Translations under genes and position numbers: made by a program
Shown here: piece by piece, positions 3,449 to 28,085 of the stretch
Numbering within the stretch: position 1 is the stretch's first letter
How the letters are laid out: the number at the start of each line of letters is the position of its first letter
The notes under the pieces: generated by a model
What the model saw: the letters and a program-made list of their open reading frames with translations, nothing else
Told to the model about the DNA's origin: nothing
Database searches by the model: none
Assembly (NCBI GenBank): GCA_016929595.1
Contig: JAFGIN010000193.1
Span: 1-64,000, forward strand
Origin: Chitinispirillaceae bacterium
Lineage (GTDB): Bacteria; Fibrobacterota; Chitinivibrionia; Chitinivibrionales; Chitinispirillaceae
Length of the DNA stretch: 64,000 nucleotides
Direction: 5' to 3'

Positions 3449-3452
3449 AATC

Positions 3453-4484
3453 TTATTCTTTATTCTCTAAAAATTTCTGGATTTCCTTGTCAAAATCACT
3501 CCTGAATAATCTATCCTGAATCGGCCGGTATTTTTCAAATTCACTTTCGGCGAATAATCTTGCTATTTCTGCAGTTACTTTTCCGGCATTATGTAAAATA
3601 TCTTCTTCATTAAATTGTAAGAAAGCGTCCAGTTTTTTCACCCAGTCATGCATAGTCATAGGAATTCCCCGTTCAGCCTGATGTTCGGCATAATCGAGGT
3701 ACATCGTTACAATCCGGTTAAGCGGCTTTAATTCTTTTTCGGTCAGATAATTTTTTGCAATAACGACATCGGTCTTTCTGATTTTTCCCTGAGGAGAATA
3801 TTTCCACGATGTCAACCCGATGTACTCTTTGCGATGATCTGCGCGGGATACGATTACTTCCGCAGCTGTTTGACCGGTGATTGCCCAGTGAAGCTTGTTC
3901 TGAACTGTTGCAAAAAAAAGTTGGGTAATTTCTGCATTTACATCATAATCTATGCTGCATTCTGCATAAATATCGGTAATTTTTTGATACAATCTGCGTT
4001 CGCTACTGCGGATATCCCTGATCTTTTCGAGCTGCTCGGCAAAGTAATCCTGGCCAAAAATTGGCGTTGGATTTTTCAAACGCTCCACATCCATTGTGTA
4101 GCCTTTGATGATAAATTCTTTAAGAATTTTCGTTGCCCAAACTCTAAACTGTGTGGCTCTAAAAGAATTAACTCTATAGCCAACAGCAATAATTATATCG
4201 AGGTTGTAATAATTGATCGGTTTATCGGAATGAGCAAAGTGCATTTTTTGCACATTGCTTTTTTCTTCAAGTTCGTTGCTTTCAAAAATGTTTTTAATAT
4301 GTTTCGTAATAACAGTTCTATCTACATCAAAAAGCTGTGCGATTTTATTTTGGGGTAGCCAAATAGTCTCATTTTGAAGTAAAACATCAATTTTTACATC
4401 ACCATTCGGGTTTTTATAGAGTAAAAATTCTGTAAGTTTTTCCTCTTTTTTCGTGTCTTTTCGTGTCTTTCGTGGTTCCCTCAT
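3453..4484 (-). CDS. rhuM: RhuM family protein
   Basis: The 343-residue product matches the RhuM family, which was named from Salmonella pathogenicity island 3 but is common in restriction and defence loci. Recognisable stretches are the winged-helix-like WLPQNKIAQLFDVDRTVITKH, NYYNLDIIIAVGYRVNS and the Fic/DOC-like C-terminal part with ITGQTAAEVIVSRADH and GLTSWKY. The biochemical role is not established for the family. The ATG at 4484 overlaps the mod stop (ATGA), which indicates translational coupling. The first 16 or so residues (REPRKTRKDTKKEE) are encoded by a half-copy of the GCCACGAAA repeat. The native N terminus is therefore probably LTEFLLYKNPNG, and the leading basic segment was added by the insertion. 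Confidence 0.88.
   Translation of the reverse strand: MREPRKTRKDTKKEEKLTEFLLYKNPNGDVKIDVLLQNETIWLPQNKIAQLFDVDRTVITKHIKNIFESNELEEKSNVQKMHFAHSDKPINYYNLDIIIAVGYRVNSFRATQFRVWATKILKEFIIKGYTMDVERLKNPTPIFGQDYFAEQLEKIRDIRSSERRLYQKITDIYAECSIDYDVNAEITQLFFATVQNKLHWAITGQTAAEVIVSRADHRKEYIGLTSWKYSPQGKIRKTDVVIAKNYLTEKELKPLNRIVTMYLDYAEHQAERGIPMTMHDWVKKLDAFLQFNEEDILHNAGKVTAEIARLFAESEFEKYRPIQDRLFRSDFDKEIQKFLENKE
4447..4475 (-). repeat. Half-copy of the GCCACGAAA repeat inside rhuM codons 4-15
   Basis: On the minus strand the segment reads CCACGAAAGACACGAAAAG followed by another ACACGAAAAA unit, and it is translated in frame. No oppositely oriented partner is present nearby, so this is a solitary arm, unlike the paired copies elsewhere in the island. 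Confidence 0.75.
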
Positions 4485-6544
4485 AGCACCGTAATCCTGG
4501 TTTCAGGCGAAAGCCTCTTAAACCGCTCTTCCACATTAATTCTGTCTTTATCATCTTTGAAACTGGCATCTTTGAACACCACCTTTAAAGGCTGCAAGTC
4601 GGCGATTTCATCCATGATTTTGAAGTTGATATCGTTGTCGAAACAGGCGACCAGGGCGTTTGTCTGGACGATGAAGACGGTGTTGCCATTGGTTCCTGAG
4701 CCGGGTCGAAGGATCTTTTTTTCGATAGGAAGACTGAGTTCCAGACCAAGGTCGAGCAGTACCTGAGTAAGAAGGTCTTCGGGTGTGCGGTCTTCCTTGA
4801 TGTTGCTTATCAGGCCGGCAAGCGCTGTCTGCTGCAGCTCTGTGGGGTGGTAGAAGATGTCTTTCGTATTTGATGAATCTACCTTGTAAACACGGAAACC
4901 GATGTCAAGATTTTTTTGCCACGAAAGACACGAAAGGTCACGAAAATTTTCAGTTTCAGCTTCGCTGAACAAATTCTCCTGATTATCATCTTCTTTTTTT
5001 CCGTGTTTTTTCGTGCTTTTCGTGGCTAACTCTTCCAGTATTTTCTTCCCCGCGCGGCGTATTCGTTCTTTGCCGATGTCGGCAATGGTTTTGTAACCGG
5101 CTTTGTAGGCTTCGCTGGAGGGATCGGTTTGTTCGGGGAGTTGGACCATGATGAATTTACGATTGCCAACCTCGCCGGTTGCTGAGCTTGTCGAAGCATC
5201 GGCGTTGAGTTGCATGACGGCGTGGGCGGTGGTGGCGGAGCCGGAGAAGAAGTCGAGGATTATTGCATCTTTTTCTGAATTCAAACCTATTTGAATTAAT
5301 TTATATAAAAATTTGGATGGCTTAGGAAAATCGAATATCTTTGCATCATTAAAAATACCAACAAATTCATTTGTTCCATGCTGTGTGTAGATGTCATCTA
5401 TAATTGAGAATGGTTTGGTTTTTCGCATTTCTCCACTCTCATCATTTAAATATTGTTTTGATGATAATATCCAATTACCTTGGTTGTCTTTTGAAAATTC
5501 TATTTCATTTCTTTGGAGTGCATTTTCTACTCTCTCTTCTCCCCATCGCCATTGTCGTTTAGGATAAACTAAATCTCCATTTGGTGCCTTGATTGGAAAT
5601 TTTAAATTCTCTCTGACATCAAAACTTTTCATTGCTTCAAGCGGATGTGTTCTATATGGTCCTTTAACACCAAAATGTTCATCTTTATTTTTATAATATC
5701 TGTCAATTGCATCATCTTTTAATGGTATAAATAGTTCATTAAGTGAAGAAATGTTTTTAGTATATACCAATACATATTCATGTAGAGCAACTAAATATTT
5801 CTCTTTTGCCCCCCCGCCATAACGTTTTTTCCAAATTATTGGATCTATAAAATTCTCCTCCCCAAAAACCTCATCACAAATTTTCCTCAAATTATGCACT
5901 TCATTGTCATCAATACTAATAAAAATCACCCCATCATCCCGCAACAAATCCCTCGCCACCACCAACCTCTCATACATCATACTCAACCAATCCGAATGGA
6001 ACCTCCCGTTACTATCCGTATTCCTGAAAAGCTTTCCGCCGTCTTCATCTTCAACCCCCAATTCTTCTTCGTACTCTTCTTTACTCTTTTTAAAATCATC
6101 TTTGTAAATAAAATCATTCCCGGTATTATACGGTGGGTCAATGTAAATCATCTTGATTTTACCGAGGTAGCTCTCCTGCAGAATTTTCAACACCTCAAAG
6201 TTGTCACCTTCAATATAAAGGTTTTCTGTGGTGTCAAAATTGACACTCTCTTCCCTGCACGGCCTGAGAGTTTTATCAACAGGCGTGTTTGCCTTTAAAA
6301 GCGAAGCCTTTTTCCCCGGCCAGTCCAGGCGGTAACGCTCATTATCATCTTCAACAAGCACACCGGATAACTGCTGTCGTAGCAAATCAAAATCTATTGC
6401 TTTTTTATATCTCTTTTTTTCGTGTCCTTTCGTGTCTTTCGTGGCTCCATCTTCTATTTCTGTAATGACATTTGGAAATAGTTGGGCAATTCGCTCGATA
6501 TTCTCCTGCGTTCTGTCCGGTGTCTGCATTTTCAGTTTTTCCAT
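4481..6544 (-). CDS. mod: Type III DNA adenine methyltransferase, Mod subunit
   Basis: Mod recognises the target site and methylates adenine at N6. It protects the host and recruits Res. The 687-residue protein has motif IV DPPYNTGNDF at 136-145 and motif I-type DFFSGSATTAHAV near 428-440, the order of the beta class to which type III Mods belong. The C terminus has the usual GFRVYKVDSSN. Its start overlaps the dinD stop by one base (TAATG) and its stop overlaps rhuM. Three repeat-derived insertions are translated in frame. They are ATKDTKGHEKK near 34-44, DASTSSATGEV just after motif I, and a whole inverted-repeat element near 507-543. All sit in places where a linker is plausible, so the enzyme may still be active. 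A central part (4.5-6 kb) is AT-richer and is probably the variable target-recognition region. Confidence 0.93.
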   Translation of the reverse strand: MEKLKMQTPDRTQENIERIAQLFPNVITEIEDGATKDTKGHEKKRYKKAIDFDLLRQQLSGVLVEDDNERYRLDWPGKKASLLKANTPVDKTLRPCREESVNFDTTENLYIEGDNFEVLKILQESYLGKIKMIYIDPPYNTGNDFIYKDDFKKSKEEYEEELGVEDEDGGKLFRNTDSNGRFHSDWLSMMYERLVVARDLLRDDGVIFISIDDNEVHNLRKICDEVFGEENFIDPIIWKKRYGGGAKEKYLVALHEYVLVYTKNISSLNELFIPLKDDAIDRYYKNKDEHFGVKGPYRTHPLEAMKSFDVRENLKFPIKAPNGDLVYPKRQWRWGEERVENALQRNEIEFSKDNQGNWILSSKQYLNDESGEMRKTKPFSIIDDIYTQHGTNEFVGIFNDAKIFDFPKPSKFLYKLIQIGLNSEKDAIILDFFSGSATTAHAVMQLNADASTSSATGEVGNRKFIMVQLPEQTDPSSEAYKAGYKTIADIGKERIRRAGKKILEELATKSTKKHGKKEDDNQENLFSEAETENFRDLSCLSWQKNLDIGFRVYKVDSSNTKDIFYHPTELQQTALAGLISNIKEDRTPEDLLTQVLLDLGLELSLPIEKKILRPGSGTNGNTVFIVQTNALVACFDNDINFKIMDEIADLQPLKVVFKDASFKDDKDRINVEERFKRLSPETRITVL
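4918..5026. repeat. Complete inverted-repeat element inside the mod reading frame
   Basis: GCCACGAAA at 4918 and TTTCGTGGC ending at 5026 bound a 109-bp element with the same arms as the intergenic copies. On the minus strand it is open and translated, starting ATKSTKKHGKK and ending RDLSCLSWQ. It lies between the Mod segments RRAGKKILEEL and NLDIGFRVYKVDSSN, which are close together in ordinary type III Mods. Confidence 0.8.
5181..5197. repeat. Dispersed repeat GAGCTTGTCGAA within mod
   Basis: GCTGAGCTTGTCGAAGC lies in frame in mod and encodes the STSSA portion of ADASTSSATGEVGNRKF. A related copy (TTCGACAAGCTCAGTG) lies in non-coding DNA at 12464-12479. It is a second repeat family, unrelated to GCCACGAAA. 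Confidence 0.6.
6414..6445 (-). repeat. Half-copy of the GCCACGAAA repeat inside the mod N terminus
   Basis: On the minus strand this reads GCCACGAAAGACACGAAAGG followed by ACACGAAAAA. It is translated as ATKDTKGHEKK, directly before the conserved segment KKAIDFDLLRQQLS. No inverse partner is nearby. Confidence 0.75.
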
Positions 6545-7398
6545 TAGTTATTCTCACTTTTCAGACAATCGCTATTTTTTAGAGATTTTTTATTTTCTGC
6601 GTTTAGTTTGCGCTCAACTTTTTTTATATCTTCTTCCGGAGGAATGTTTTCGGGAACAATACCTCTGGAAATAAGCGTATTTCTTACTGTTTTGTTATTG
6701 GTAATATGCTCATCGGATATTTGTCTCTCTGTGTTCATGCTTTTGTCTTTAGCATTATAAATTGTAATTTCTGCAGCAAAATCTTTTGCTTTTAAAAGGA
6801 TGGTGGGCATGTGATCGGCAAGGGGTTTCTGAGCGATACCCCATTTGTCTTTCATTTGCTGTGTTGTTCTGTTAAAAAGAGCCTGGTCACCTTTACTTCT
6901 AATAAGTGCAAAATTTTCATTTCCGCCGGTTTGCTCAAAAATTACTTTAGAGAGTTCTTTCTCGGTTTGTGCAAGTTTATGGCGGGCTTGAACTCTTTCG
7001 TATTCTAAGATTTTTTGTTCAATAATTTCGGCTTTTCTTGTCTGAACGGCAAAATATGTTTGCGCAAATGCAATCTCTTCTTTGCGCGGATCACCGTTTT
7101 GCGCAATAAGATAACACGCGTATCGGGTGAGCATAACGTCTTCTATTTCTTTTGTCGCGCCCGATCCAATATCAACCATCTTCCCGGCGTCGGGAAAATG
7201 GTCTGCGACATTTTGACCCGATACTTCACATGCTGTTTTAGCTTTGACTATTACATTTTTAAAATTGTCCCATTTACCGTATCCAAGGAGCGTTTGTAAA
7301 TCTCTTGCCAGCCAGAATTCTACACCGCTTTCGGATTTGTTTGCGAAAGATTCAAAATTATTGGTTAACGATATTACTATGGCTTTTTCCATCGTCAT
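6544..7398 (-). CDS. dinD: DNA damage-inducible protein D (DinD) homologue
   Basis: The 284-residue product resembles E. coli DinD. Its N-terminal BRO-like domain has FWLARDLQTLLGYGKWDNF, followed by DVMLTRYACYLIAQNGDPRKEEIAFAQ split over the conserved core, and its C-terminal part is alpha-helical. E. coli DinD is LexA-regulated and inhibits RecA filament activity. DinD-like genes are frequent in restriction islands, where their role is unclear. I chose ATG 7398 because it overlaps the DUF4391 stop (TAATG) and has GGAG just upstream; an alternative ATG at 7392 would drop two residues. The stop overlaps the mod start by one base. No LexA-type operator is visible immediately upstream, since the gene is internal to the operon. 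Confidence 0.9.
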   Translation of the reverse strand: MTMEKAIVISLTNNFESFANKSESGVEFWLARDLQTLLGYGKWDNFKNVIVKAKTACEVSGQNVADHFPDAGKMVDIGSGATKEIEDVMLTRYACYLIAQNGDPRKEEIAFAQTYFAVQTRKAEIIEQKILEYERVQARHKLAQTEKELSKVIFEQTGGNENFALIRSKGDQALFNRTTQQMKDKWGIAQKPLADHMPTILLKAKDFAAEITIYNAKDKSMNTERQISDEHITNNKTVRNTLISRGIVPENIPPEEDIKKVERKLNAENKKSLKNSDCLKSENN

Positions 7399-8030
7399 TA
7401 ATCTCCTGTAACTTCTTTGAGTAACGCTTTTTTTTCCAGTAAATATTTATTAATCTCAACCTTCCGATTGAACTGTTTTTCCTGCCTGATTTTATTTTCC
7501 AACAGCGCGATTTCGGTTAATAATTGTTTTTTTCTGGTATCCCCCGCAACAAGCTCGCTAAAATCCTTCTTTGTTTCGGACTCTACAGTGATAAACGCCA
7601 TTACCAGCTTCTGGTAAACTTTTTCTAAATCGATTCCGGTAAAATCAAAAGGGACTGGTACATCCCACGCTGAAAAATAGTAATTTTCAGCCTTGTTACC
7701 CTCCTTTAAAGTGATACCCCACGCAAAAGAATTCTTGTAATAGAATTTATACAGTATTTGATAGGGTATAGCGCGGTCAATAACTTTTAAAACCCGCTCC
7801 GGAATGATCTGTTCCTTCAACTCAAGTTCAAAAATCTGGATCTCTGTTACTTTTTCCGTTTTTGAAATGCCGATTGTCTCTTCGGCAAGTTTATACTTCC
7901 AGGTGATTCGCTGGATGCTATCAACGAACTCTTTATGCAGGCGGGAACTGATATTTGATCGTTCATAGAATTTAGTCTTCGCGACGAACTTATTGACAAA
8001 TGCTTGTTGGGGTAGGTTTAATTCATTCAT
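7398..8030 (-). CDS. DUF4391 family protein
   Basis: The 210-residue product matches DUF4391, a family found next to helicases and Mod proteins in restriction-type loci and without a known activity. Recognisable parts are an N-terminal MNELNLPQQAFVNKFVAKTKFY, a central VLKVIDRAIPYQILYKFYY and YFSAWDVPVPFDFTGIDLEK, and a C-terminal charged coiled-coil-like segment with many Lys, Glu and Leu (about residues 165-207). It could be an adaptor between the large helicase and Mod; that is inference from context. The ATG at 8030 has no good ribosome-binding site, because the GCCACGAAA repeat lies immediately upstream. The stop overlaps dinD. Confidence 0.85.
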   Translation of the reverse strand: MNELNLPQQAFVNKFVAKTKFYERSNISSRLHKEFVDSIQRITWKYKLAEETIGISKTEKVTEIQIFELELKEQIIPERVLKVIDRAIPYQILYKFYYKNSFAWGITLKEGNKAENYYFSAWDVPVPFDFTGIDLEKVYQKLVMAFITVESETKKDFSELVAGDTRKKQLLTEIALLENKIRQEKQFNRKVEINKYLLEKKALLKEVTGD

Positions 8031-8035
8031 TTTTA

Positions 8036-8171
8036 GCCACGAAAAGCACGAAAAAACACGAAAGAGTATAAAATATTAAAAGGATAGCTCTTGCCCTGAA
8101 TTTAAAAACATTCATGTTAATATATAACTTCTGTCATTCTTTTTTTCGTGCTATTTCGTGTATTTAGTGGC
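8036..8171. repeat. Inverted-repeat element upstream of the DUF4391 gene
   Basis: GCCACGAAAAGCACGAAAA at 8036 faces a copy ending TTTAGTGGC at 8171. The 136-bp unit resembles the elements at 3323-3448 and 4918-5026, with a different AT-rich core. It ends 14 bases before the next pair begins at 8186. Confidence 0.75.
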
Positions 8172-8185
8172 CAGTTTTTCTTTTA

Positions 8186-8624
8186 GCCACTAAAAGCACG
8201 AAAAAACACGAAAGGGTTTATAATACTATACGTTTAATTTCAACTTTTGGGTATGCGCCAAAATTGACTATCAAACCCAACTTCAAATCTGTTGCTTTTA
8301 AATAATTTAACACTTGAGCCTGATGCTCCTTTGCAATCGCAGAAACGCCTTTTAGCTCAACAATAATAGCATCAAAACAAATAAAATCAGGTTTATACGT
8401 TTGTTTTAACGGTTCACCTTTATACATCAAAGAAAGAGTTTTTTGAGAATCAAATGGAATTTTCCGCAGCGAAAATTCTCTTTCCAGACATTCCTGATAT
8501 ACAGCTTCCAGGAAACCGTTTCCCATCTCTTTATAAACTTCAAAAACAGCACCTTGTAACAGGTAGCTTTCTTCTTTAAACAAAATTTCTTGCATTTTTT
8601 CGTGCCCTTTCGTGTATTTCGTGG
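8186..8624 (-). mobile_element. Cassette: GxxExxY gene bracketed by the inverted GCCACGAAA repeats
   Basis: A left arm (8186-8215, starting GCCACTAAAAGCACGAAAA) and a right arm (8595-8624, ending TTTCGTGGC) enclose 439 bp that hold the GxxExxY gene and essentially nothing else. The gene stop is three bases inside the left arm. Its ATG directly abuts the right arm, which supplies an AAAGGG ribosome-binding site. The outer edge of the right arm is one base from the helicase stop. Mobility is inferred from the layout; no target duplication was evident to me. Confidence 0.55.
8218..8595 (-). CDS. GxxExxY family protein (PD-(D/E)xK nuclease fold)
   Basis: The 125-residue product is a typical GxxExxY protein of usual length. 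It has the name motif GFLEAVY near 27-33, then YKPDFICFDAIIVELKG, in which the Asp and the E-L-K fit a PD-(D/E)xK active site, and a closing LNYLKATDLKLGLIVNFG. Its function is unknown; a nuclease-like role is inferred from the fold. Unlike its neighbours it does not overlap them. Instead it is framed by inverted repeats, so it looks like an inserted passenger rather than a core member of the restriction operon. The likely ribosome-binding site AAAGGG is part of the upstream repeat. Confidence 0.9.
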   Translation of the reverse strand: MQEILFKEESYLLQGAVFEVYKEMGNGFLEAVYQECLEREFSLRKIPFDSQKTLSLMYKGEPLKQTYKPDFICFDAIIVELKGVSAIAKEHQAQVLNYLKATDLKLGLIVNFGAYPKVEIKRIVL

Positions 8625-8625
8625 C

Positions 8626-11600
8626 TTATTTTATCACCACAAAAGTAAGCAGCTCAAAATCTTCAAGTCCTTTGATAGTATTTACCAGAGCTGTAGTTCC
8701 ACCCGCACTGAAAAGGCTGTCTACATCCCGTTCATCCTTGACAGAAATTATCGATTCAATTGACTTGTTTAAAAGTGAGGAGTATTTTTCCATCTCCTTA
8801 CCATCACCTGTTTCATCGTTAAATAATTCGTAAACATCTTTAAGCGGTTCATTATACCCTTTCGAAATTAACCTTAAGATATCCAGTGTTTCCTTCACAT
8901 TCAGGTGGTTTGAAAGAATCTCACCATTTTCCTTTATGTATACCAGATAGAAGGGATGAAGCTGGTTTGTTTTGTCAATATTTACCGCGTTATTGATGTT
9001 TTTCAGCACATAGATAACGCCTTCATCAATTCCTTTTTCTTTATCTTTCCGGCAGACCGTGTGCATGCCGTTTGCGACATCCTCAAGCGTACCGTTTTTC
9101 TCAATGTAGCCGACCAGATCCATACGGAAATCATTAAGACCTAAATCGGTAATTGAAACGCCTGAACCGATATCCTCAATATCTACGACTTCTTCCTGTA
9201 GTTTTTCGAGTTGTTTTTTCCTGAACAGTAAGTCCGAGGACTTGTTGGTAAGGACATTGTCTTCACCGGTAGCCGTGGCATCTACCATGAACATTTTACT
9301 TTCAACTCTGCTTTTCAGGTTGATATAGTCATCAAGGGAAAGCTGCGGCCAGAAATTTATAAGCTGAATGTCCTTGTTTACAGAGCCAATACGGTCGATA
9401 CGGCCAAAGCGCTGAATAATCCGCACTGGGTTCCAGTGGATGTCGTAATTAATGAGCGTATCGCAATCCTGCAGATTTTGCCCTTCAGAAATACAGTCGG
9501 TTGCAATAAGCACATCAATTTCGGGGGCTTCTTTATTTTTTCTTTCTTTGGACCGTGGTGAGAAATTTATCAGCAGGTTATTAAAATTTGCATGGATTTT
9601 CAGGGTTGTCTGGTTTTGATCCGATCCCACTATTTTTGCCGATTCTAACCCATACTCTTCTTTTACATGTTCAGCAATATTTGTATAGAGATAGTGCACG
9701 GTATCTGCAAATGCACTGAATACCAGTACCTTTTTATTACCTGCGTTAATCGGGTTATTGATTTTAGCAGCAATGACCTTTTTCAAATCCTGCAGTTTTG
9801 TATCATGCTCCGGTGTTACCCGTTTCATCTCTTCTGAAAGCGTGGCAGCAATATAATAATCTGCCTGTAAATCCTCTTTCCACCCGGTAGTATTCATGTC
9901 GGCGAGATTGATTTTGACCTTATCACCAATACTGAACTCATCATTAAGCCAGTCATCGCTGTTATCATCAAGGTTTACATCATCAAATTGTGTCGCAGTG
10001 GTAAAAGCTTGCGATCCGTTTTTTTCAAATTCTTCAATAGCAAAAATTGTTCGTTCAATTTCCTTGATAAATTTGCCGAGTGTAATCCGGAATGAGTCAA
10101 CAGAACTTTCAAGCCTTTTAAGCAGATTAACCCTCATAAGTGTTTGGAGATTTTTTTCGCGGTGCGACTGCTTGAAACTGGTGTTGTCCTTCAGTTTCGT
10201 ATCGTAAACATCACTGTAAAATTCTTTTTTTGAATCGAGGATATATTCAAAGGGGGAATAAATAGCCATATTGAGGCGCGTCAGCTCTTTATAAAGGGAA
10301 GCTATTTCGATAAAATCCTTCAGGTCGGTAATATCCGCATGGTGGGTGATCGGCTTCAACCTGTTAGGGAATTTACCGATTTTACCAGTGTCATAATACT
10401 TCTCAATATGCTTTCTGCTGCGTGCAATGGTGACGCTATCAAGCAGTTTGAAAAAATCAAAATTAGTATTGAGACTCGTTATAAGCTGCTGGCTGGTGCG
10501 TTCCTCTATAGGCAGTTTTGCCCAATCATTGAAAGTTTTCTGAGCGTTTTTAAGGATATTGTCAACCGATTTTCCTGTTTCCAGCTTTGTATCTAAATCA
10601 CCTGTTTGTCCTTCAAAGGCCAGCGCCAACTGGTTTTTCAAATCATTAAATCGGTTGTTAACCGGTGTTGCAGAAAGCATAAGTACTTTTGTTTTGACTC
10701 CGGCTTTCATGACGTCGTTCATAAGTTTCTGGTAGCGTGTCACCCTGTCTTTACGGGGATCATTGTTCCTGAAATTATGAGATTCATCTATGACGACCAG
10801 ATCGTAATTGCCCCAGTTTATCCGGCTTAAATCGATACCGTTTGATTCACCGTTTTCCCTTAAAAGGTCCGTGTGGTAGAGCACATCGTAATTCAGGCGG
10901 TCTTTAATAAGCGGGTTGTCATCGTAGTTATTCAGGAATGTCTGCCAGTTATCACCAAGCTTTTTAGGACAGAGTATCAGCACAGTCCGGTTGCGTTCCT
11001 GGTAATACTTTATTACACCCAATGCAGTGAAGGTTTTGCCAAGGCCAACACTGTCGGCAAGGATGCATCCGTTATGCCGTTCCAGTTTATTGATAATACC
11101 AAGTACAGCATCTCGTTGAAAATCGTACAGTTTATTCCAGATTACCGACTGCTTAAAGCCTGTTTTTTCGTTTGCCAGTTCATCTTCGGAAATATCCTCA
11201 AGGAATTCATCGAAAATATTGAATAGGGTCAAATAGTAGATAAATTCTGGTGAATTCTCTTTATAGAGGTTCGATATATACCCGGCAACTTCTGCTGTTA
11301 CATCTTTGAGGATAGTAGTATCATTCCAAATCTCTTCGAATGATTGCATATACTGTTTTGTGGTATCATAATCATCAGTTTTAATTACCTGATGCAGGAT
11401 TGCATTGTCCTTTTCATACCCAAAGCCAGCACTGCTGAACTCATGTATCCCCATATACACGAATTTTCGCTCTTTCGTGTCGAGGGTGATATGCGGCTGG
11501 ATATACTTATTGCCGAAATTGGTTTTAAAATGTACCTTTTCTTCTATCCACTTGCGACATTCCCGCGCAATCGCTTTGCCCTTTAGTTCGTTTTTAAGGT

Positions 11601-11874
11601 TAATCTCGAAATTTGAACCACCAATAGCTTTCTGGCGTTGGTTGGTTAAAATCTGGAATTGCCTGCTCTCCCGACTATTTTTGTCAATATCAACAAACGT
11701 TGGATCTGTGAAAATGAAGTTGAGACTTTCAACTTTCTTCAGTTCTGTTTTCAGTGATTCAAACCCGTATATTGTAAAAATCCCCGCAGCAACTTCCAGT
11801 TTGCTACCTTTGGTAATTTCTTTTTGTAGGTCGTCACCGACTTTTTCGGTTCTGTTATTAAAGGAATGGATCAT
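8626..11874 (-). CDS. SNF2/DEAD-type helicase with N-terminal PLD-like domain
   Basis: A 1082-residue superfamily 2 ATPase. The N terminus (about 1-190) looks like a phospholipase-D-type domain: KGSKLEVAAGIFTIYGFE resembles its first strand-helix, and YMGIHEFSSAGFG takes the place of the usual GSSNFT motif. The HxK catalytic signature is not recognisable, so the domain is probably inactive. The helicase core has DSVGLGKT (Walker A, near 270), DESHNFR (near 360), LMLSATPVNNRF (near 400) and IIQRFGRIDRIGS (near 818). It probably translocates on DNA, and in this operon may act with DUF4391 and Mod. Its start overlaps the preceding small ORF by one base (TAATG). Confidence 0.9.
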   Translation of the reverse strand: MIHSFNNRTEKVGDDLQKEITKGSKLEVAAGIFTIYGFESLKTELKKVESLNFIFTDPTFVDIDKNSRESRQFQILTNQRQKAIGGSNFEINLKNELKGKAIARECRKWIEEKVHFKTNFGNKYIQPHITLDTKERKFVYMGIHEFSSAGFGYEKDNAILHQVIKTDDYDTTKQYMQSFEEIWNDTTILKDVTAEVAGYISNLYKENSPEFIYYLTLFNIFDEFLEDISEDELANEKTGFKQSVIWNKLYDFQRDAVLGIINKLERHNGCILADSVGLGKTFTALGVIKYYQERNRTVLILCPKKLGDNWQTFLNNYDDNPLIKDRLNYDVLYHTDLLRENGESNGIDLSRINWGNYDLVVIDESHNFRNNDPRKDRVTRYQKLMNDVMKAGVKTKVLMLSATPVNNRFNDLKNQLALAFEGQTGDLDTKLETGKSVDNILKNAQKTFNDWAKLPIEERTSQQLITSLNTNFDFFKLLDSVTIARSRKHIEKYYDTGKIGKFPNRLKPITHHADITDLKDFIEIASLYKELTRLNMAIYSPFEYILDSKKEFYSDVYDTKLKDNTSFKQSHREKNLQTLMRVNLLKRLESSVDSFRITLGKFIKEIERTIFAIEEFEKNGSQAFTTATQFDDVNLDDNSDDWLNDEFSIGDKVKINLADMNTTGWKEDLQADYYIAATLSEEMKRVTPEHDTKLQDLKKVIAAKINNPINAGNKKVLVFSAFADTVHYLYTNIAEHVKEEYGLESAKIVGSDQNQTTLKIHANFNNLLINFSPRSKERKNKEAPEIDVLIATDCISEGQNLQDCDTLINYDIHWNPVRIIQRFGRIDRIGSVNKDIQLINFWPQLSLDDYINLKSRVESKMFMVDATATGEDNVLTNKSSDLLFRKKQLEKLQEEVVDIEDIGSGVSITDLGLNDFRMDLVGYIEKNGTLEDVANGMHTVCRKDKEKGIDEGVIYVLKNINNAVNIDKTNQLHPFYLVYIKENGEILSNHLNVKETLDILRLISKGYNEPLKDVYELFNDETGDGKEMEKYSSLLNKSIESIISVKDERDVDSLFSAGGTTALVNTIKGLEDFELLTFVVIK

Positions 11875-19880: not shown

Positions 19881-19889
19881 ACTCATACA

Positions 19890-19928
19890 ATCGCTCATCG
19901 CAGGCTTTTGCAATGCCCGATGAGCGAT
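19890..19928 (+). terminator. Long hairpin after the GT4 gene
   Basis: ATCGCTCATCG (19890-19900) and CGATGAGCGAT (19918-19928) form an 11-bp perfect stem starting ten bases after the stop. There is no T-run, so it is either a Rho-independent terminator of atypical form or an mRNA-stabilising end structure. Confidence 0.5.
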
Positions 19929-20364
19929 CCTGCAACTGATCTAATTGTGCTCATGTTTTAGTGCTAGATTATAAGTTTTAAGCCTCCGCTTATCCCAGGC
20001 TGCCTGGTAACGGTTCAGCCACAGCAACAAATATATAGCACAACAGCGAATAAAATGACATAATAGAGCTTGGACCTGATAATCGTTCGAGGTACTTCCT
20101 TGCTGCTTGCAAGTATATGTTCAAATCAGACTGATAGTGGTAAAAACGCTTGTAGTCAATAAATGAATATTCAGAGGGTGTTTACGCAGGCCTGACAGTG
20201 AAAGATGCACAGCATAATGAGAAGTTATATATACACTATTTTAAAAAGGGTGATTTCATCTGTGGACCTCAAATTGGTGACAGATGGTAATATGGAGCGG
20301 CAATCATCGTCGAAGTTTAAAGCGTTGATGGAACCGAAGGGTAAAACATGCCAAGGAGCAAGAA
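19929..20364. other. Spacer before the chemosensory operon
   Basis: About 436 bases with no supported gene. It must contain the promoter of the STAS-CheA operon; the AT-rich segment at 20225-20250 (TTATATATACACTATTTT) is the best place for it, but I cannot assign boxes. AAGGAGC lies just before the ATG at 20365. Confidence 0.4.
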
Positions 20365-20679
20365 ATGATAAACTTTGTTGATTTGCATGAGAAAGATCAT
20401 GTCAGGTTTGTTTTAGATGGCGAACTGGTTGCAGGTGGAATGGACAAACTGCGTGAATCCTTAAAAAGACATATCGAAAACGGTGTACAAAAAGTTGTAT
20501 TTGATATGGAGAGGGTGTCAACGCTCGATTCTGCCGGTGTGGGTTTTCTGGCTGCAGCACATAATTCTCTTGTCAAAGTCAACGGATCGATTAGAACTGT
20601 TCAACTTTCAGAAGAGATGTACAATTTTTTTGTAAGTTTACGTTTGAATACCCATTTCAATATTGAGCAGCGGACGTAA
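20365..20679 (+). CDS. STAS-domain anti-anti-sigma-type protein
   Basis: The 104-residue product is a stand-alone STAS domain. FDMERVSTLDSAGVGFLAAAHN carries the conserved D-S pair, the Ser being the phosphorylation site in SpoIIAA-like proteins. In chemosensory operons such proteins may couple the pathway to a partner-switching module, but no anti-sigma kinase or PP2C phosphatase gene is present here. AGGAGC precedes the ATG. The cheA start lies 43 bases downstream, which suggests co-transcription. Confidence 0.88.
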   Translation: MINFVDLHEKDHVRFVLDGELVAGGMDKLRESLKRHIENGVQKVVFDMERVSTLDSAGVGFLAAAHNSLVKVNGSIRTVQLSEEMYNFFVSLRLNTHFNIEQRT

Positions 20680-20722
20680 AGAATCCTTAAATCTTTTAAA
20701 AAATTCTAATTGGGGAATTTAC

Positions 20723-23700
20723 ATGCAAGATTCGCTATTAAACGATTTTCTGGTAGAATGCAGGGAGCACCTTGAGGGAATAGAGTCTGATCTGCTTGCC
20801 ATAGAGGAATCTGGAAAAAATGTCGATAGTGAGTTGGTGAATAAAGTATTCAGAGCTGCTCATTCGATAAAAGGCGGTGCGGCTTTTTTCAATTTATCTC
20901 AAATAAAAGTTCTGGCGCACAGAACAGAGACTGTCCTTGATATGATTCGCTCCGGAAAATTACAGGTTTCACCTGAAATAATTAACATCCTTCTGAACTC
21001 ATTTGATACGCTACGTTCGATGATCAATAATCCCGATGAGATGGATTCTGTAGATATTTCTTCTCAGGTAGGAGCACTTCAGGAAATCGTTGACAACTCA
21101 GTAACAGAAAAAGAGAGAGGTTCTTTCAACCGTTCAACCAGACTTGCAGATCTGTCAGGAACATGTTCAGTAAATGTACCGGAAATTGATGTCAAGACGG
21201 CAGAAAAAGAATTCCAGTATATCTACCTTATAGAATATGACTTATTGCATGACATAGAAATGGCTGGGAAATCCTCTCTGATGATGCTTAATAGTTTATC
21301 CAGGATGGGAATCATTGTTGATACTCTCTTTGATATAGAAGGGGTGGGGACACTGGATGATGAACCTGTAAATTCTATTGTGGTAAAACTGATATATCGG
21401 ACGGTTGTAGAGCCGGATCTGATCGAAACTGCCGTTGAAGCAGGACATGAAAAAATAGTTTGTATCTATAATCCTCATTCTAAAAAAGAAAAAACGGATG
21501 ATACAAATGCGGATACACAGAAAACTGAAACGTTTAATGATGCCGGGAATGATGACAAAGGTGGTGAGGCACATACTGCGAACCTTTCACAAGCCGGGAG
21601 CAGTTCTGTAGAAGGTCGGTCGAAAAATCCGGTAACGGTGACCGAAACAGTTAGAATTAACGTAGAAGCACTTGACACATTGATGACGCATGCTGGTGAA
21701 CTCGTATTAAGCAGAAATCAACTAATCGATGCAATCAGCCGCAATGATCAAAAGGCTCTGAAGACCTCCGCTCAGCGGCTCAATTTTGTCATTTCCGAAT
21801 TGCAGGAAGCAGTAATGCAGACAAGGCTGCAACCTATTGGAAATGTGTTCAATAAATTTCCCCGGATGGTTCGTGATCTATCAAAAACGCTTAATAAAGA
21901 ACTGCACCTCAATATTGAAGGGAAAGATGTTGAGCTGGATAAAACAATTATTGAGGGATTGAGTGATCCTTTGACACATATGGTTAGAAACGCTGCGGAT
22001 CACGGTATAGAATCACAGTCTGAGAGAACAAAAAAAGGAAAACCCGCAGCAGGTACTATTACTCTGAAAGCTTTTCATGAAGCTGGACATGTAAATATTG
22101 AACTGAGTGATGATGGTAAAGGTATCGATTCAGAAAAAATTGCCGATAAAGCTTTTTCGATGGGGCTCATTACTGAAGAAAAATTAAGAGGTATGACAGA
22201 TTACGACAAAACATCACTGATTTTTCTTCCAGGGTTGTCAACAGCTGAAAAAGTCAGCGAAACCTCCGGACGGGGAGTCGGGATGGATGTTGTTAAAAAT
22301 AATCTCGATCGTCTGGGTGGCAAAGTTTCGATCCAGTCTGCAATTGGGAAGGGTACCGTTTTCAATATCAAATTACCGCTTACACTGGCGATTATACCTT
22401 CATTGATAATTCATGAAGAGCAGGAGCGATTTGCAATACCCCAGGTGAATGTTATAGAATTGCTTCGGATACCTTCAGTACAGATTAAAGACAGGCTTCA
22501 AATAGTGGGAGATACTGAGGTTGTTGTGGTAAGAGGGGAATTGATTCCTATAGTACGCTTTGCCGACCTTTTAGGAATACCAAAAACGTATATCGACCCC
22601 AATACCGGGAATGTTGAAATTGATAGACGCAGTAGAGTTGCTGATCGAAGGTCAAAGAGACGGTCGATCGATGGGCGTATGGATGTTGTGTCTGCAGAAA
22701 TAGAGCAACGCCGAACGGGAAAAGACAGACGTGTAAGAGCCGCAAGTGATGTGAATATTGTCATTGTTTCCAGCGGATTGCTTCAGTATGGTCTCGTTGT
22801 CGACAATATGAGAAATACTGAAGAGATTGTGGTAAAACCTCTGGGTACGCACTTCAAGAAGATGCAGGAGTATGCCGGTGCGACAATAATGGGTGATGGG
22901 GGTGTTGCGCTCATTATCGATGCTACAGGTCTTGCACTCAAAGCAGGTATTACATCTGTATCGGCAGCAAAAAATAAAGGAAATATAGCGGATCTATCGG
23001 GCAGTGAAGGAGAACACTCGTTACTCATTTTTGAAAATACTCCTGGTGAATGCTGTGCTTTATTACTGGAACTGGTATTAAGAATCGAGCAAATCGCAGC
23101 GAACCAGGTCGAATATAAAGGTGGTATTCGCTCAATGCAATACCGGGGAAAATCACTACCTCTGGTACAGTTGTCGGATGCTGCAAATGCAGGTGATGTA
23201 CCGCTTGAAAAAGAACTGGTTGTGATCGTGACCCGGGTTTCTAATAGGGAAATCGGTCTTCTGGGACTTATGCCCGTTTCGGTTGAAGAACGAAACTTTA
23301 TTGTAGATACTACAATCCATCGGCAGCCGGGAATATGCGGTTCAATGATTTTTGATGAAAAAACGGTTATGATGATTGATGTGTTTGAGATAATAGACAA
23401 AGTGTATCCCGAATGGAAAACTGAAAAAAAACGAGACGAAAGAAATGTCGGAACTACGGTACTTCTGGCTGAGGATAGTGAATTTTTCAGAGAACAGGTT
23501 ACAAAATATTTGAATGATGGCGGATATAATGTTATAGCTACCTCTGATGGGATGGAGGCATGGGAAAAACTTCAGGAGCATAAGAATGAAGTAAAATTAG
23601 TTGTAACCGATATAGAGATGCCTGTTATGACAGGATTGGAATTGTGCAAAAAAATCAGAACCGATAAGACATTTTCATCATTGCCGGTTATAGCATTGAC

Positions 23701-23815
23701 ATCTCTGGCTGGAGATGAAGACCGCGAAAAAGGTCTTGCTGTGGGAATTACGGATTACCAGGTAAAATTTGATAGGGACCGTCTTAATGAGGGTATCAAA
23801 AGGTTATTGTCTTAA
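20723..23815 (+). CDS. cheA: Hybrid chemotaxis kinase CheA with two CheW-like domains and a receiver
   Basis: 1030 residues. In order: HPt domain with the phospho-His H47 in [12 protein letters not shown]; a P2-like domain near 160-250 ([17 protein letters not shown]); a dimerisation helix pair near 309-375; an HATPase with the N box MVRNAADHG near 423 and GRGVGMDVV near 516; a CheW domain from about 553; a second CheW-like domain near 761-896; and a C-terminal receiver near 913-1030 with phospho-Asp in [12 protein letters not shown]. An Arg-rich insert ([15 protein letters not shown] and a second block) sits at about 633-672. I chose ATG 20723, which has GGGGAATT upstream; the longer frame begins inside the STAS gene. 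With the built-in receiver no separate CheY is needed. Confidence 0.95.
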
Positions 23816-23853
23816 AATGTATAAAAATAAAATATAATGGAGGATGGAACAAA

Positions 23854-25530
23854 ATGAATCTCTTCTCAAAAATAAAAATTGGTAAAAGACTCATGTTATC
23901 ATTCGCAATGCTGTGTGTTTTTACTATTGCGATAATAGCAGTTACCATAAGCGGACTGGTAGATGTTACTAAACAAGTTAATTTGAACGCAAGAAACTCA
24001 GAACTGCTTTTAACGTCACAGGATGTATCCGTATACGCTCACAAAATTGGAGAGCTTTTAGCTGTGATAACAATTACAAATGATAAAAATCAGAGAGAAA
24101 TGTATAAATCGAAAATCGGGAAAATCCGTCTTGCATATCGTTCATTACTTGATTCGCTGCAAAAACAGGTTGCTAGTGAGGAAGAAAAGGTGCTTTTGAA
24201 AGCGGTCGTAGATGTAATAACGGGTGTCCAAGTGTCAACTGATCAGGCAATTGCATTAGCTGATAGCGGGCTGCTGGATAATGCACGGTCCCTTTTTTCT
24301 GAAAAGGCTGTCGTTGAGTTGGAGAAGATAACTGAAAATGCTGAAAACTTTGTTGCTTTTCAGAAAAAGCAAATTCTTAATCTTGAAAGCAAGGTTAAAA
24401 AAACTGTTGTATCCCTGTCGAGACTAGTAATTTTTCTGGGAGTACTGCTCGTTGCATTTTCGATCATAATGTCGACATTAACAACCAGAAGTATAACCAG
24501 GCCGCTGGCTGAAATCGGCAGTAAGATAGTAGCGGTGGCAGATGGCAATATTGCATCAGATATATCACAAGAGCTGCTGTCGCGATCTGATGAAGTTGGC
24601 ACTATAGGAAAGTGTGTACAGAATCTGATTTCAAATCTGAAAAATAGTATAGTAAATTTGACATCAGGTATGAAGGATATTGCTAATTCTACAGGAGAAC
24701 TTCAATCAATTGCAACAACGTTAAATAAAGAAACTGCCGGATTAAAACAACGTGCAACAACCGTCGCTGCATCAACAGAAGAGATGAGTGCTAATACCCA
24801 CTCTGTGGCATCGGGAATGGATGAAACAAGCAACAGTATCTCCTCGGTCGCTGCTGCAACAGAAGAGATGAATGCTACCATTTCTGATATAGCTCAGAAT
24901 GCAGAAAAAGCAAGAAGTGTAAGTGCTGAGGCGATGAAACAGGGGGAAACAATCGTTGATGTCGTTAAAAAACTTGGAATTTCCGCAAAAGATATCAATA
25001 CCGTTACTGAGACAATTACAAGTATCTCCGCTCAGACAAACCTGCTTGCCCTTAATGCGACTATTGAAGCTGCGCGTGCAGGTGCTGCAGGAAAAGGTTT
25101 CGCAGTCGTAGCAAATGAGATAAAAACACTGGCCGAACAAACATCAACTGCAACCGGTGATATAAAAGCTAAGATAAATGGTATTCAAACTGCTACCGAA
25201 AAGGCAATTGCTGATATTCAACAGATTACAGGAGTGATAAAGGATGTCGGTGATATCGTAAATGGTATTGCAACTGCAATAGAAGAACAGTCAACCGTTA
25301 CAAAAGATATCGCGGCAAATATCTCGCAGGCAACTGATGGCGTAAAGGATGCAAATGTCCGTATCAGAGAGACTGCAAAGGTTTCTAATGAAGCTGCCAG
25401 AGATATTTCTATAATGAAAAATGGGTTTGACGGGATTGTGGAGGTAACCGGACAGGTAAACTACAGTACTGAACAAATAGTAAATGCTTCCGGAAAAATA
25501 AAATCTATTGTAGAGCAGTTCAAAGTCTGA
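23854..25530 (+). CDS. Methyl-accepting chemotaxis protein
   Basis: 558 residues. A first membrane helix (about 13-35), a four-helix-bundle sensor region, a second membrane helix (about 190-208, [18 protein letters not shown]), a HAMP linker and a long signalling coiled coil. The hairpin tip carries [19 protein letters not shown] and [11 protein letters not shown]. No CheR-docking pentapeptide is seen at the C terminus. The sensor should be periplasmic. The ligand is unknown. It sits between cheA and cheW, so it is probably the cognate receptor of this pathway. GGAGG lies eleven bases upstream of the ATG. Confidence 0.94.
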
Positions 25531-25572
25531 ACCCGGTCACTATTATCAGAGTAAATTAAAAACGGAGTACTG

Positions 25573-26055
25573 ATGATATCAATTGAAAATACAGAACAGA
25601 ACAGTATCCTGACGGTCATTTTTGTGGTTGATGACATCCTCTTTGGTCTTGATGCAGGTATCATTCAGGAGGTTGTACAGGTAAAAAAAATAACTCCGGT
25701 ACGTCAAGCGCCACCCTATATTGCAGGCGTTATGAACCTTCGCGGACGTGTTGTTACAGTGATCGATCTGGGAACAAGACTGGAGATGCAACAGGTCGAA
25801 ATAAATGATCAATGCAGAATACTTATTGTCGAGTGGAAACAGGAATATATAGGTGTGCTTGTTAATTCTGTATCTGAAGTGATCCAGGTCGAAAAAAGTG
25901 ATATAAAATCGTCACCTGGAAATGTCAAAGGGGTACAGCAGATGTTTATTTCCGGTGTTTTTAAAAGGTTGGATCAAACGCATGCGTGCTTGCTTGATAT
26001 AGACAAACTCTTAGATCCTGAATCCAGAGAAAACGAAAAAGATAGAGTTGAATAA
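25573..26055 (+). CDS. cheW: Chemotaxis coupling protein CheW
   Basis: 160 residues, a single CheW domain. Recognisable parts are VIFVVDDILFGLDAGIIQEV, the central APPYIAGVMNLRGRVVTVIDL and LVNSVSEVIQVEKSDI. CheW links the receptor tips to CheA. It lies 42 bases after the receptor gene and 81 bases before cheB. Nothing unusual. Confidence 0.94.
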   Translation: MISIENTEQNSILTVIFVVDDILFGLDAGIIQEVVQVKKITPVRQAPPYIAGVMNLRGRVVTVIDLGTRLEMQQVEINDQCRILIVEWKQEYIGVLVNSVSEVIQVEKSDIKSSPGNVKGVQQMFISGVFKRLDQTHACLLDIDKLLDPESRENEKDRVE

Positions 26056-26136
26056 TTTATATATGTAAATTATTGTTCTGCACTGACCCTTACCACATTT
26101 TATTATTGACAAACAATTACATGAGGAAGTAAACGA

Positions 26137-27249
26137 ATGAGTCTTCGGGTTCTGGTTGTCGATGATACTATCATTTTCAGGACGATACTTGCTGATGTCC
26201 TGAGAGAAATTGATGATGTTGAAGTTGTGGGAACTGCACCGAATGGAAAATCTGCAATTGCCAAAATAGCAGAATTAAAACCCGATCTTGTTACGCTTGA
26301 TATCGAAATGCCGGGAATGAATGGCATTGAAGTACTCGAACAGATCCGTCTGAATAATTACTCAACTGGAGTGATTGTCGTAAGTTCCTTCACAGAAAGC
26401 GGAAGTACCTATACAATCCAGGCGCTTGAAAAAGGTGCTTTTGATTTCATTACCAAACCTTCAGAAGATACCATTGAGAAAAACAAGACATTTATAAAAA
26501 ATGAATTGCAGCCTAAAATAAGGATTTTTTTACGGAAGTGGGAGATCCGGTCGATTCTGAAAGGTTCGTTTTCGCCTGCTTCTGGTGGTCGTAAGCCAGG
26601 TTTAGAAAGTAAGGTGCTGACTACTCCTGTACTTGTCAGCAGTACTACCACAAAAAAAATGGTACATCCTCAGATGATTCTCATAGGAGTTTCAACAGGG
26701 GGGCCAGCAGCGCTTTCTGTTATTATTCCTCAGATTCCTTCAAATATCAATGTACCGGTTTTTATCGTTCAACATATGCCGCCCATGTTTACGCAGGCAC
26801 TTGCCGAAAGTCTTCAATCAAAATCAAAATTAGAAGTAATGGAAGCTGCAGATGGAATTGAACCAATGCCCGGCTGCGTTTATATCGCACCTGGTGGAAA
26901 GCAGATGAAGCTTGTAAAGACTCCTGGCAATTTAAAACGCATCGAGATTACAGATGATCCCCCCGAAAATAATTGTAAACCAGCGGTTGATTACCTTTTT
27001 AGATCGGTTGCAAGTAATTTTCCGGCACAGTCTGTTGCGGTTATACTGACCGGAATGGGCAGTGATGGGACAATCGGTTTGAAATTACTTAAGAGGCAGG
27101 GGTGCCAGATCATTGCACAGGATGAAGCAAGTTGTGTTGTTTTTGGAATGCCGCGTTCTGCTATTGAAGCTGGAGTGGTTGATGAAGTGCTGCCGCTTGG
27201 CAAAATCGCTGAACGAATGACTGAGATCGTAAAACGGGGTAGGATTTGA
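26137..27249 (+). CDS. cheB: Chemotaxis response regulator protein-glutamate methylesterase CheB
   Basis: 370 residues. The receiver domain begins LRVLVVDDTIIFRTIL and has its phospho-Asp at D55 (LVTLDIEMPGMNG). A linker leads to the methylesterase domain, with the catalytic Ser in GVSTGGPAAL, His in VQHMPPMFTQ and Asp in TGMGSDGTIGL. It removes methyl groups from receptor glutamates and so resets sensitivity. Its stop overlaps the cheR start by four bases (TTGA). Confidence 0.96.
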   Translation: MSLRVLVVDDTIIFRTILADVLREIDDVEVVGTAPNGKSAIAKIAELKPDLVTLDIEMPGMNGIEVLEQIRLNNYSTGVIVVSSFTESGSTYTIQALEKGAFDFITKPSEDTIEKNKTFIKNELQPKIRIFLRKWEIRSILKGSFSPASGGRKPGLESKVLTTPVLVSSTTTKKMVHPQMILIGVSTGGPAALSVIIPQIPSNINVPVFIVQHMPPMFTQALAESLQSKSKLEVMEAADGIEPMPGCVYIAPGGKQMKLVKTPGNLKRIEITDDPPENNCKPAVDYLFRSVASNFPAQSVAVILTGMGSDGTIGLKLLKRQGCQIIAQDEASCVVFGMPRSAIEAGVVDEVLPLGKIAERMTEIVKRGRI

Positions 27250-28085
27250 TACCCGTTACATCTCAGGAACTTCAGTTGTGGGGTACATTTATAAAAAGTG
27301 TGTGCGGGAATAATATCGAAGATAAAGCTTATCTCATAGAAAGCAGACTTTCTCCAATCGCAAAAGAATTAAACTGCGATTCATGGCAGGAACTATACTA
27401 TAAAGTAAAAAATGACATAAGCGGAACACTGAAAAGAAAAATAATTAATGCCATCACTACAAATGAAACCTCGTTTTTCCGGGATAACAGCCCGTTTGAA
27501 ATGTTAAAATACAAGATTCTCCCTGATCTTATAGATAAACGAAAAAAAACTACCCCTTCAGGAAGTGATATCCCTATAAGAATCTGGAGCGCAGCATGTT
27601 CGACCGGACAGGAGCTCTACAGTATTGCTATTGCTATCAGAGAAACTGTCGGGAATCTCAAAGGATATGATGTGCGCCTGTTAGGAACTGACATTTCTGA
27701 TGATGTGGTGACAAAAGCCAGTCGGGGTATCTACGGCAAAATTGAGATTGAACGCGGACTTGCTCCCGATATGCTTAACAGATATTTTGAAAAAAAAGAC
27801 AGTGAATGGAAAATCAAGGATGAAATAAGGGCTTTGGCAACCTTTAAACATATTAACCTGTTGGAATCTGTTACATTTCCCAATAAGTTTGATATCGTTT
27901 TCTGTAGAAATGTCGCAATTTACTTTTTAACAGATGATCGTAAAAAACTATACACAAACATAGGGAAAGAGCTTGCTTCTGATGGCTATCTTATAATAGG
28001 TGCGACCGAATCATTGGCAAATCTTTGTCCGCAGTTTCAATCTTTCAGATATCTGCGTTCAGTTTATTACCAACTGAAGAGATAG
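27246..28085 (+). CDS. cheR: Chemotaxis protein methyltransferase CheR
   Basis: 279 residues from a TTG start coupled to the cheB stop. The N-terminal helical domain has TTNETSFFRDNSPFEML, and the SAM-binding part has RIWSAACSTGQELYSIAIA, LGTDISDDVV and IVFCRNVAIYF. It methylates receptor glutamates. In most CheR proteins the SAM loop reads STGEEPYS; here it is STGQELYS, a mild deviation. It is the last gene of the operon. I see no strong terminator before the convergent NUDIX gene. Confidence 0.94.
   Translation: MIPVTSQELQLWGTFIKSVCGNNIEDKAYLIESRLSPIAKELNCDSWQELYYKVKNDISGTLKRKIINAITTNETSFFRDNSPFEMLKYKILPDLIDKRKKTTPSGSDIPIRIWSAACSTGQELYSIAIAIRETVGNLKGYDVRLLGTDISDDVVTKASRGIYGKIEIERGLAPDMLNRYFEKKDSEWKIKDEIRALATFKHINLLESVTFPNKFDIVFCRNVAIYFLTDDRKKLYTNIGKELASDGYLIIGATESLANLCPQFQSFRYLRSVYYQLKR

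Follow-up and report, generated by a model that had tools for sequence, protein, structure and literature searches.

A chemosensory operon of a Chitinispirillaceae bacterium probably signals through a partner switch based on serine phosphorylation, a type of switch that regulates gene expression, and probably does not serve to set the direction of swimming. The operon lies in the window analyzed here, a stretch of 64,000 nucleotides (G000:C49:1-64000, G000 being the bacterium's own genome), and comprises six genes on the + strand, encoding STAS, CheA, an MCP chemoreceptor, CheW, CheB and CheR. Its CheA belongs to a class that, in loci of eight labelled phyla, has genes for a receiver-bearing phosphatase (REC-PP2C), an RsbW-type kinase and STAS in the same gene chain. 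This linkage, together with the residues kept in the encoded proteins, leads us to propose that CheA would phosphorylate REC-PP2C, which in turn would dephosphorylate the STAS protein.

Switch genes beside this class of CheA

We searched 84,980 species genomes for relatives of the CheW-CheW-receiver part of the CheA, using two peptide patterns, and took the best 80 of at least 553 confirmed relatives. Three of these were duplicates of contigs from the window's family (L099, L100 and L103) and one, L173, had no CheA kinase; the remaining 76 are the class loci, a count that leaves out C142-type paralogues, which belong to the class clade. Most of the genomes are metagenome-assembled, and phylum labels come from record titles, so that single ones may be wrong. 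Loci were annotated with local hidden Markov models (HMMs) built partly on the same sequences, and Pfam was used to check 16 RsbW and 5 REC-PP2C proteins: 16/16 match HATPase_c_2, to which RsbW-type kinases belong, and 5/5 match Response_reg plus SpoIIE.

The exact order REC-PP2C, RsbW, STAS, CheA is present in 21/76 class loci, with a median coordinate difference of 4 between neighbors; in many loci a gene of 134-177 amino acids lies between REC-PP2C and STAS. All three switch genes are in the gene chain of 23/76 loci, labelled Acidobacteriota (7), Thermodesulfobacteriota (4), Verrucomicrobiota (3), Myxococcota (2), Planctomycetota (2), and Pseudomonadota, Chloroflexota and Spirochaetota (1 each), with two unplaced. 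Counted singly among the 76 loci, PP2C belongs to the chain in 25 and RsbW in 24; the 25 include L132, where a divergent PP2C lies far downstream.

We compared the 53 class loci that have at least 2.5 kb upstream with 59 control CheAs. PP2C is in the chain of 23/53 class loci and 0/59 controls (Fisher p 1e-9), RsbW of 22/53 and 0/59 (p 4e-9), and STAS of 39/53 and 8/59 (p 7e-11), this last control count being possibly low because the STAS HMM missed a STAS-like gene on contig C208 (a weak STAS_2 match, below cut-off). The Fisher values overstate the evidence because related loci are counted as independent, but the contrast itself is plain. The 37 genomes of 38 class loci gave 139 CheA matches, about 101 of them non-focal. 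From these 101 we took 60 as controls and then removed L254, which proved to be a class member. They were chosen among the top-ranking matches by E value, three contig-edge matches being skipped and also most frames of about class length, so they are uninformative on class-length paralogues. The 38 loci that supplied the control genomes were hand-picked, 26 of them because they have module genes.

In most members of the window's family that hold this CheA, the phosphatase gene adjoins the operon. Among 24 family genomes, the window's own included, orthologues of the CheA occur in six; those in G017, G018, G005, G004 and G001 are 51-62% identical to it. In G018, G005, G004 and G001, a gene for 367-403 amino acids stands directly upstream of STAS, and all four products carry Response_reg plus SpoIIE, identifying them as REC-PP2C. 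Orthologues of this protein at E 1e-40 are found in five of the 24 genomes, in single copy, and every one of these genomes also holds this CheA. The gene adjoins STAS-CheA in four of its five holders, the exception being the window genome, whose single copy lies at G000:C220:27842-28978, unlinked to the operon. Thus, the PP2C phosphatase that the preliminary description of this DNA had proposed to seek elsewhere exists both directly upstream of STAS in four of the five relatives and as one orthologue in the own genome. The C220 protein matches Pfam SpoIIE at 94.6 bits and keeps the conserved PP2C aspartates; it is 55% identical to the G018 protein, its nearest relative, and the next PP2C of the genome reaches 27%. 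By closeness of CheA to that of the window, G017 comes first and G018 second. Because the C220 copy is closest to the operon-type PP2C of G018, the arrangement fits relocation of the phosphatase gene out of the operon. The corresponding place in the window is as follows.

19881..20364, no strand: gap preceding STAS, the place of REC-PP2C in four relatives; no remnant seen

A PP2C remnant there was rejected, the best tblastn match with the four REC-PP2C proteins having an E value of 0.63.

The residues expected of a working switch are largely conserved. Ser56 of the window STAS (codon 20530-20532) falls in the column that we take to be the phosphorylation site of RsbV/SpoIIAA. This column holds serine in 24/24 STAS proteins whose locus includes RsbW and in 16/28 whose locus does not, the others having Pro (7), Met (3) or Ala (2), a pattern consistent with phosphorylation having been lost in loci that no longer have the kinase. 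Serine is also kept in 6/6 STAS proteins of the window's family, though none has RsbW in its locus. Across 33 aligned REC-PP2C proteins, Asp is invariant at five positions, a sixth position has it in 27, and 31 keep the receiver Asp; the five conserved aspartates presumably bind metal.

The switch proteins also track CheA in their divergence. Mantel correlations with CheA distances are 0.55 for PP2C (33 loci), 0.79 for RsbW (26) and 0.66 for STAS (32), and the positive controls CheR and CheB give 0.86 and 0.84 (27 loci each), all at p 0.001. On a CheA tree of 103 rows, made by a quick method and containing several long branches, the class forms one clade of 84 rows (SH-aLRT 98), made up of the 76 class loci plus six family members and two C142-type paralogues. 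The phylogeny that had been suggested as a check places the window CheA within this clade; CheAs of the G020/G021 and C203 types fall outside it. The first branch of the clade (two Planctomycetota loci) has full PP2C/RsbW/STAS modules, and others are dispersed over the rest of it. Desulfobacteraceae loci mostly lack the module; some of those that lack it carry a REC-STAS fusion, or have CheR followed by a HEAT-repeat receiver protein. We read this distribution as a module present early and then lost repeatedly, with repeated gain as another possible history.

Several individual loci deserve mention. A REC-STAS fusion lies directly upstream of the class CheA in Desulfobacteraceae-type loci (L137:7142-7888, also L135 and L153; Pfam on L137 only), with Met at the serine column, and its receiver may address STAS directly. 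L122:9977-11668 encodes the HEAT-repeat plus receiver protein after CheR, with PP2C and RsbW absent (Pfam on L122 only), and genes of similar size follow CheR in L147, L151 and L157; this protein is a possible substitute output. Within the family, the CheA of L088 (G001:C133) groups with Verrucomicrobia/Acidobacteria loci, apart from the other family CheAs, and its operon has two hemerythrin-like genes (one Pfam-checked), suggesting possible horizontal transfer. In the G005 operon, an MCP combines a Cache sensor with a hemerythrin domain at its C terminus (L086:3987-6185), hinting at an oxygen-related input in the family.

The operon and its CheA

The preliminary description had reported a STAS-led chemosensory operon with a CheA that carries two CheW domains and a receiver, and both parts hold: six genes lie on one strand at the stated coordinates, and their main domains score above the Pfam cut-offs. 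Corrections concern the CheW domains of CheA and the CheA start. The elements are the following.

20365..20679, +: STAS-only protein, RsbV/SpoIIAA-like, 104 amino acids (Pfam STAS 48.7 bits)
20723..23815, +: CheA, 1030 amino acids, with HPt, P2-like region, dimerization domain, HATPase, split CheW1, CheW2 and receiver (Pfam, own-genome HMM matches and alignment of relatives)
20735..21016, +: HPt domain of CheA (Pfam Hpt, residues 25-118 numbered from 20663)
21173..21469, +: class-conserved P2-like region at CheA residues 151-249 (fold predicted to be ferredoxin-like, in the P2 position)
22598..22735, +: Arg/Asp-rich insert within the first CheW domain of CheA (gap between two CheW half-matches)
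23054..23398, +: second CheW domain of CheA (E 3.3e-6, 29 bits)
23459..23791, +: receiver domain of CheA (Pfam Response_reg 76.7 bits)
23854..25530, +: MCP chemoreceptor, 558 amino acids, 4HB sensory module (Pfam MCPsignal 98.5 bits)
25573..26055, +: CheW (Pfam CheW 112.4 bits)
26137..27249, +: CheB, receiver plus methylesterase (Pfam CheB 219.6 bits, receiver 95.7 bits)
27246..28085, +: CheR methyltransferase (Pfam CheR 183 bits)

The CheA start is better set at the ATG at 20723, which most aligned relatives share, and adjacent genes are then spaced from a 4 nt overlap up to an 81 nt gap. The motif aaggag precedes the ATG of the STAS gene. The STAS protein scores 38.6 bits against NCBIfam ant_ant_sig, below the cut-off of 53.45, and the HAMP match of the MCP (23.2 bits) is under its Pfam cut-off of 25; CheB, at 403.4 bits against a cut-off of 293 for the NCBIfam CheB subfamily, is the sole protein to pass a family cut-off among the NCBIfam matches listed. 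Promoter-like sites (26, against 22.2 with standard deviation 5.0 in shuffles) and terminator-like sites (13, against 6.3 with standard deviation 3.3) were not used as evidence. Elsewhere in the window, at 302-11874, large minus-strand open reading frames resemble, by eye, a type III restriction enzyme, a methyltransferase and a large helicase, and may form a defense island.

Pfam scores for CheA are 62 bits for Hpt, 51 for H-kinase_dim, 64.8 for HATPase_c, 79.7 for CheW (in three stretches) and 76.7 for Response_reg. The HPt histidine is kept in 73/74 aligned class CheAs, the remaining one having a gap. The apparent presence of three CheW domains was rejected: CheW1 is a single domain in two halves, 22418-22597 and 22736-22933, parted by the insert, whose DRR motif is found in 10/10 aligned CheAs. 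The same artefact, a false third CheW arising from a split first CheW in Desulfobacteraceae CheAs, is described by Berry, Andrianova and Zhulin (PMC10782961). In that survey, two CheW domains occur in about 8% of CheAs, nearly all of class F5, and a receiver occurs in about 34% and is important to kinase function in those studied. The architecture of the window CheA, insert included, is described there and was thus already known.

The region between HPt and dimerization domain is a plausible P2-like docking domain. An AlphaFold2 model of its 99 residues, built from 61 sequences, has a mean pLDDT of 84.2 and a pTM of 0.76. Compared by VIA with the P2 domain of T. maritima CheA (1u0s_A), it gives Z 6.2 and a root-mean-square deviation of 3.2 over 70 aligned residues, ranking fourth by Z and tied with unrelated ferredoxin-like folds. 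Foldseek returned no match at E 0.001 or better, with T. maritima P2 ranking 46th, and the Pfam P2 model is absent from the matches of the 61 class members.

A proposed pathway and its rivals

In the pathway that we propose, the array would consist of MCP, CheW and the two-CheW CheA, with adaptation via CheR and CheB, and the ligand state at MCP would set CheA autophosphorylation, as in the known pathway. The phosphoryl group would pass from CheA to the receiver of REC-PP2C, and the activated phosphatase would remove the phosphate from Ser56 of STAS, as the protein families, the kept residues and the conserved linkage suggest. Unphosphorylated STAS would then change partner and bind an RsbW-type kinase, freeing the client of that kinase, a sigma factor or other regulator. 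The receiver fused to CheA would most likely be a phosphate sink or kinase modulator, as in other CheAs.

A number of observations weigh against this pathway. The operon in the window itself has neither PP2C nor RsbW; support for the earlier guess of an output by STAS partner switching comes from the linkage of PP2C, RsbW and STAS to CheA in relatives. Across the class, PP2C is missing from the chain of 30/53 loci with 2.5 kb upstream and of 51/76 overall, among them that of the cultured strain Desulfatitalea alkaliphila M08but (L143); its presence requires 11 changes on the CheA tree, and its correlation with CheA is lower than the CheR and CheB values. The serine pattern amounts to three changes on the tree, and an independent-pairs test found six pairs, about one agreeing and none opposing (median p 1). 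The assembly of G017, whose CheA is nearest to that of the window, keeps STAS-CheA and has no REC-PP2C orthologue. The C220 row of the window genome (L050:4927-12011, equal to G000:C220:23926-31010) has REC-PP2C between a hybrid histidine kinase with PAS, two receivers and HPt and an MCP with a NIT domain, and this kinase could be the real donor of that phosphatase; the relocated PP2C may have input from two sources. No dedicated free-standing RsbW was found in the window's family, where the best matches are fusions of PP2C-RsbW size (frames of 400-467 amino acids) that occur also in genomes without this CheA. Finally, upstream of the same-class paralogue on contig C142 stands a receiver protein of 226 amino acids, followed by the contig end; because the contig stops there, a STAS gene farther upstream is possible.

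The C142 CheA is one of four beyond the operon's own, making five CheA genes in the genome; it has the same architecture as the window CheA and is 40% identical to it. Convergent with its chemosensory operon is a gene for an MCP signaling domain fused, by Pfam, to iron-only-hydrogenase-like and 4Fe-4S domains (L039:3887-6046), likely a redox or hydrogen receptor, with a counterpart by sequence at L089:2622-4811. The genome has 24 matches to STAS, 8 to SpoIIE/PP2C and 12 to Pfam HATPase_c_2 (7 above cut-off; an RsbW profile gave 9), and none of these 12 is assignable to the window STAS as a dedicated RsbW-type kinase. As to the anti-sigma kinase, also named earlier as something to look for, an RsbW-type kinase is present in the operons of more distant relatives but has no assignable candidate in the own genome. 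Because RsbW is not in the operon of this lineage and PP2C lies on C220, we view the operon in the window as a partly dispersed version of the module, its kinase acting from elsewhere.

The strongest rival, which we consider unlikely, gives STAS a CheS-like role, in which it would bind CheA and steer phosphoryl flow among CheB, the fused receiver and receivers elsewhere. STAS-only genes are known in other chemotaxis clusters, and CheS of S. meliloti, which is reported to bind CheA and to affect the handling of CheY, is a precedent for STAS acting on CheA (PMC12654446). It would also suit the STAS genes in the chain of 8/59 control CheAs, the serine-less proteins that persist beside CheA in 12/28 loci without RsbW, and the window, where STAS alone, without PP2C or RsbW, stays beside CheA. 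What a CheS-like role leaves unexplained is the presence of REC-PP2C and RsbW genes, in a row with STAS in 21/76 loci, and the kept serine, found in every locus with RsbW (24/24) and every STAS of the window's family (6/6).

We regard as quite improbable a second rival, flagellar chemotaxis by cross-talk, in which CheA would pass phosphate to CheY-type receivers of other clusters and STAS would be incidental. The idea that the organism lacks flagella was rejected: a cluster on contig C4 encodes FlhA (Pfam, 914.6 bits) and FliM (228.2 bits), with FlhF, FlhB, FliP/Q/R and others recognized by eye and a sigma-70 family protein nearby, and lone receivers, candidates for CheY, are present in chemosensory clusters on C208, C36 and C203. 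Moreover, the two-CheW, receiver-bearing CheA of Azospirillum thermophilum heads a row CheA-CheW-CheY-CheB-CheR, and fliI follows this CheA at a distance of about 5 kb. However, lone receivers of CheY size (up to 170 amino acids) are rare in class operons, occurring downstream in 1/53 and upstream in 3/53, against 13/59 and 29/59 in controls, and no flagellar gene was recognized by eye near the operon in the window. The preliminary description had said that no CheY is encoded, which Pfam confirms for the genes of the operon, and that flagellar genes are absent, which stands for window open reading frames of at least 130 amino acids, judged by eye, but not for the organism. It had named as a refutation a dedicated CheY and flagellar genes that are co-regulated with this operon elsewhere in the genome; flagellar genes on C4 and lone receivers in other clusters do exist, and class operons seldom hold a lone receiver.

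Another early guess made the receiver fused to CheA the output; in this third rival, which is highly improbable, that receiver would bind a partner protein. In its favor, its Asp and Lys are invariant in 74/74 aligned class CheAs, but receivers are common in CheAs at large (PMC10782961), and the neighborhood indicates no partner.

Known systems and implications

The nearest relatives by architecture are the F5-class CheA systems of Azospirillum type. The window CheA has two CheW domains, as do 99% of F5 CheAs (PMC10782961), and a C-terminal receiver. Among plasmid sequences, its nearest CheA is of this type, with 41.7% identity in two pieces that together cover 62% of the query. Unlike the window class, the A. 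thermophilum row has CheY and is without STAS, PP2C and RsbW. On the CheA tree the window class is a clade separate from the A. thermophilum CheA (L179), which lies outside the 84 rows and inside a group of 96 rows with long branches; this CheA is the one likely F5 member among the references, so labelled by analogy with A. brasilense in PMC10782961. The operon differs from flagellar chemotaxis systems in having no CheY and in being unlinked to the flagellar cluster.

The proposed switch has four partial parallels. The RsbK-RsbM-RsbY and RsbV-RsbW system of Bacillus cereus likewise combines a kinase with a receiver, a methyltransferase, REC-PP2C, STAS and RsbW; its sensor is a single hybrid histidine kinase in the membrane that detects the signal itself, whereas the window has CheA with separate MCP, CheW, CheB and CheR (PMC4574943). 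In the HptB-HsbR-HsbA pathway of Pseudomonas aeruginosa, a phosphorelay to a receiver-phosphatase sets Ser56 phosphorylation of a STAS protein, but HsbR doubles as the kinase, the donor is HptB rather than CheA, and the partners are FlgM and HsbD (PMC5085249). Rhizobial CheS is also a STAS-only protein within a chemotaxis cluster; it is reported to act by binding CheA, and the passages of PMC12654446 consulted mention neither PP2C nor RsbW. A proposal for REC-PP2C-kinase and STAS proteins in Campylobacterota ties them to chemosensory proteins in the reverse direction, with STAS acting on a chemoreceptor and an unknown kinase feeding the receiver (PMC9239204). Nothing decisive on the mechanism comes from PMC8256260, PMC2700814 or PMC7666153.

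We found no account of a CheA-linked REC-PP2C/RsbW/STAS operon in the open literature searched, outside which lie the original CheA classification and other subscription papers. The new part is the comparative linkage of the switch genes to this CheA class; the CheA architecture was already known. The best-known task of chemosensory arrays is flagellar steering; type IV pili, cyclic di-GMP and a few transcription regulators are further known outputs. A broader proposal, which we consider evenly balanced, is that this array class spans phyla and ancestrally, in this CheA clade, had REC-PP2C/RsbW/STAS as a dedicated output, through which MCP signals, with adaptation by methylation, would set a regulator of sigma-factor type. 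Members would later have swapped or scattered this output, examples being the REC-STAS fusions, the HEAT-repeat receivers and the PP2C that moved next to another MCP in the window genome. Because the predicted targets are named, first REC-PP2C and then the STAS serine, what a CheY-less CheA system controls becomes directly testable. If the proposal is true, regulators of the stress or lifestyle type would acquire the gain and memory of chemotaxis receptors.

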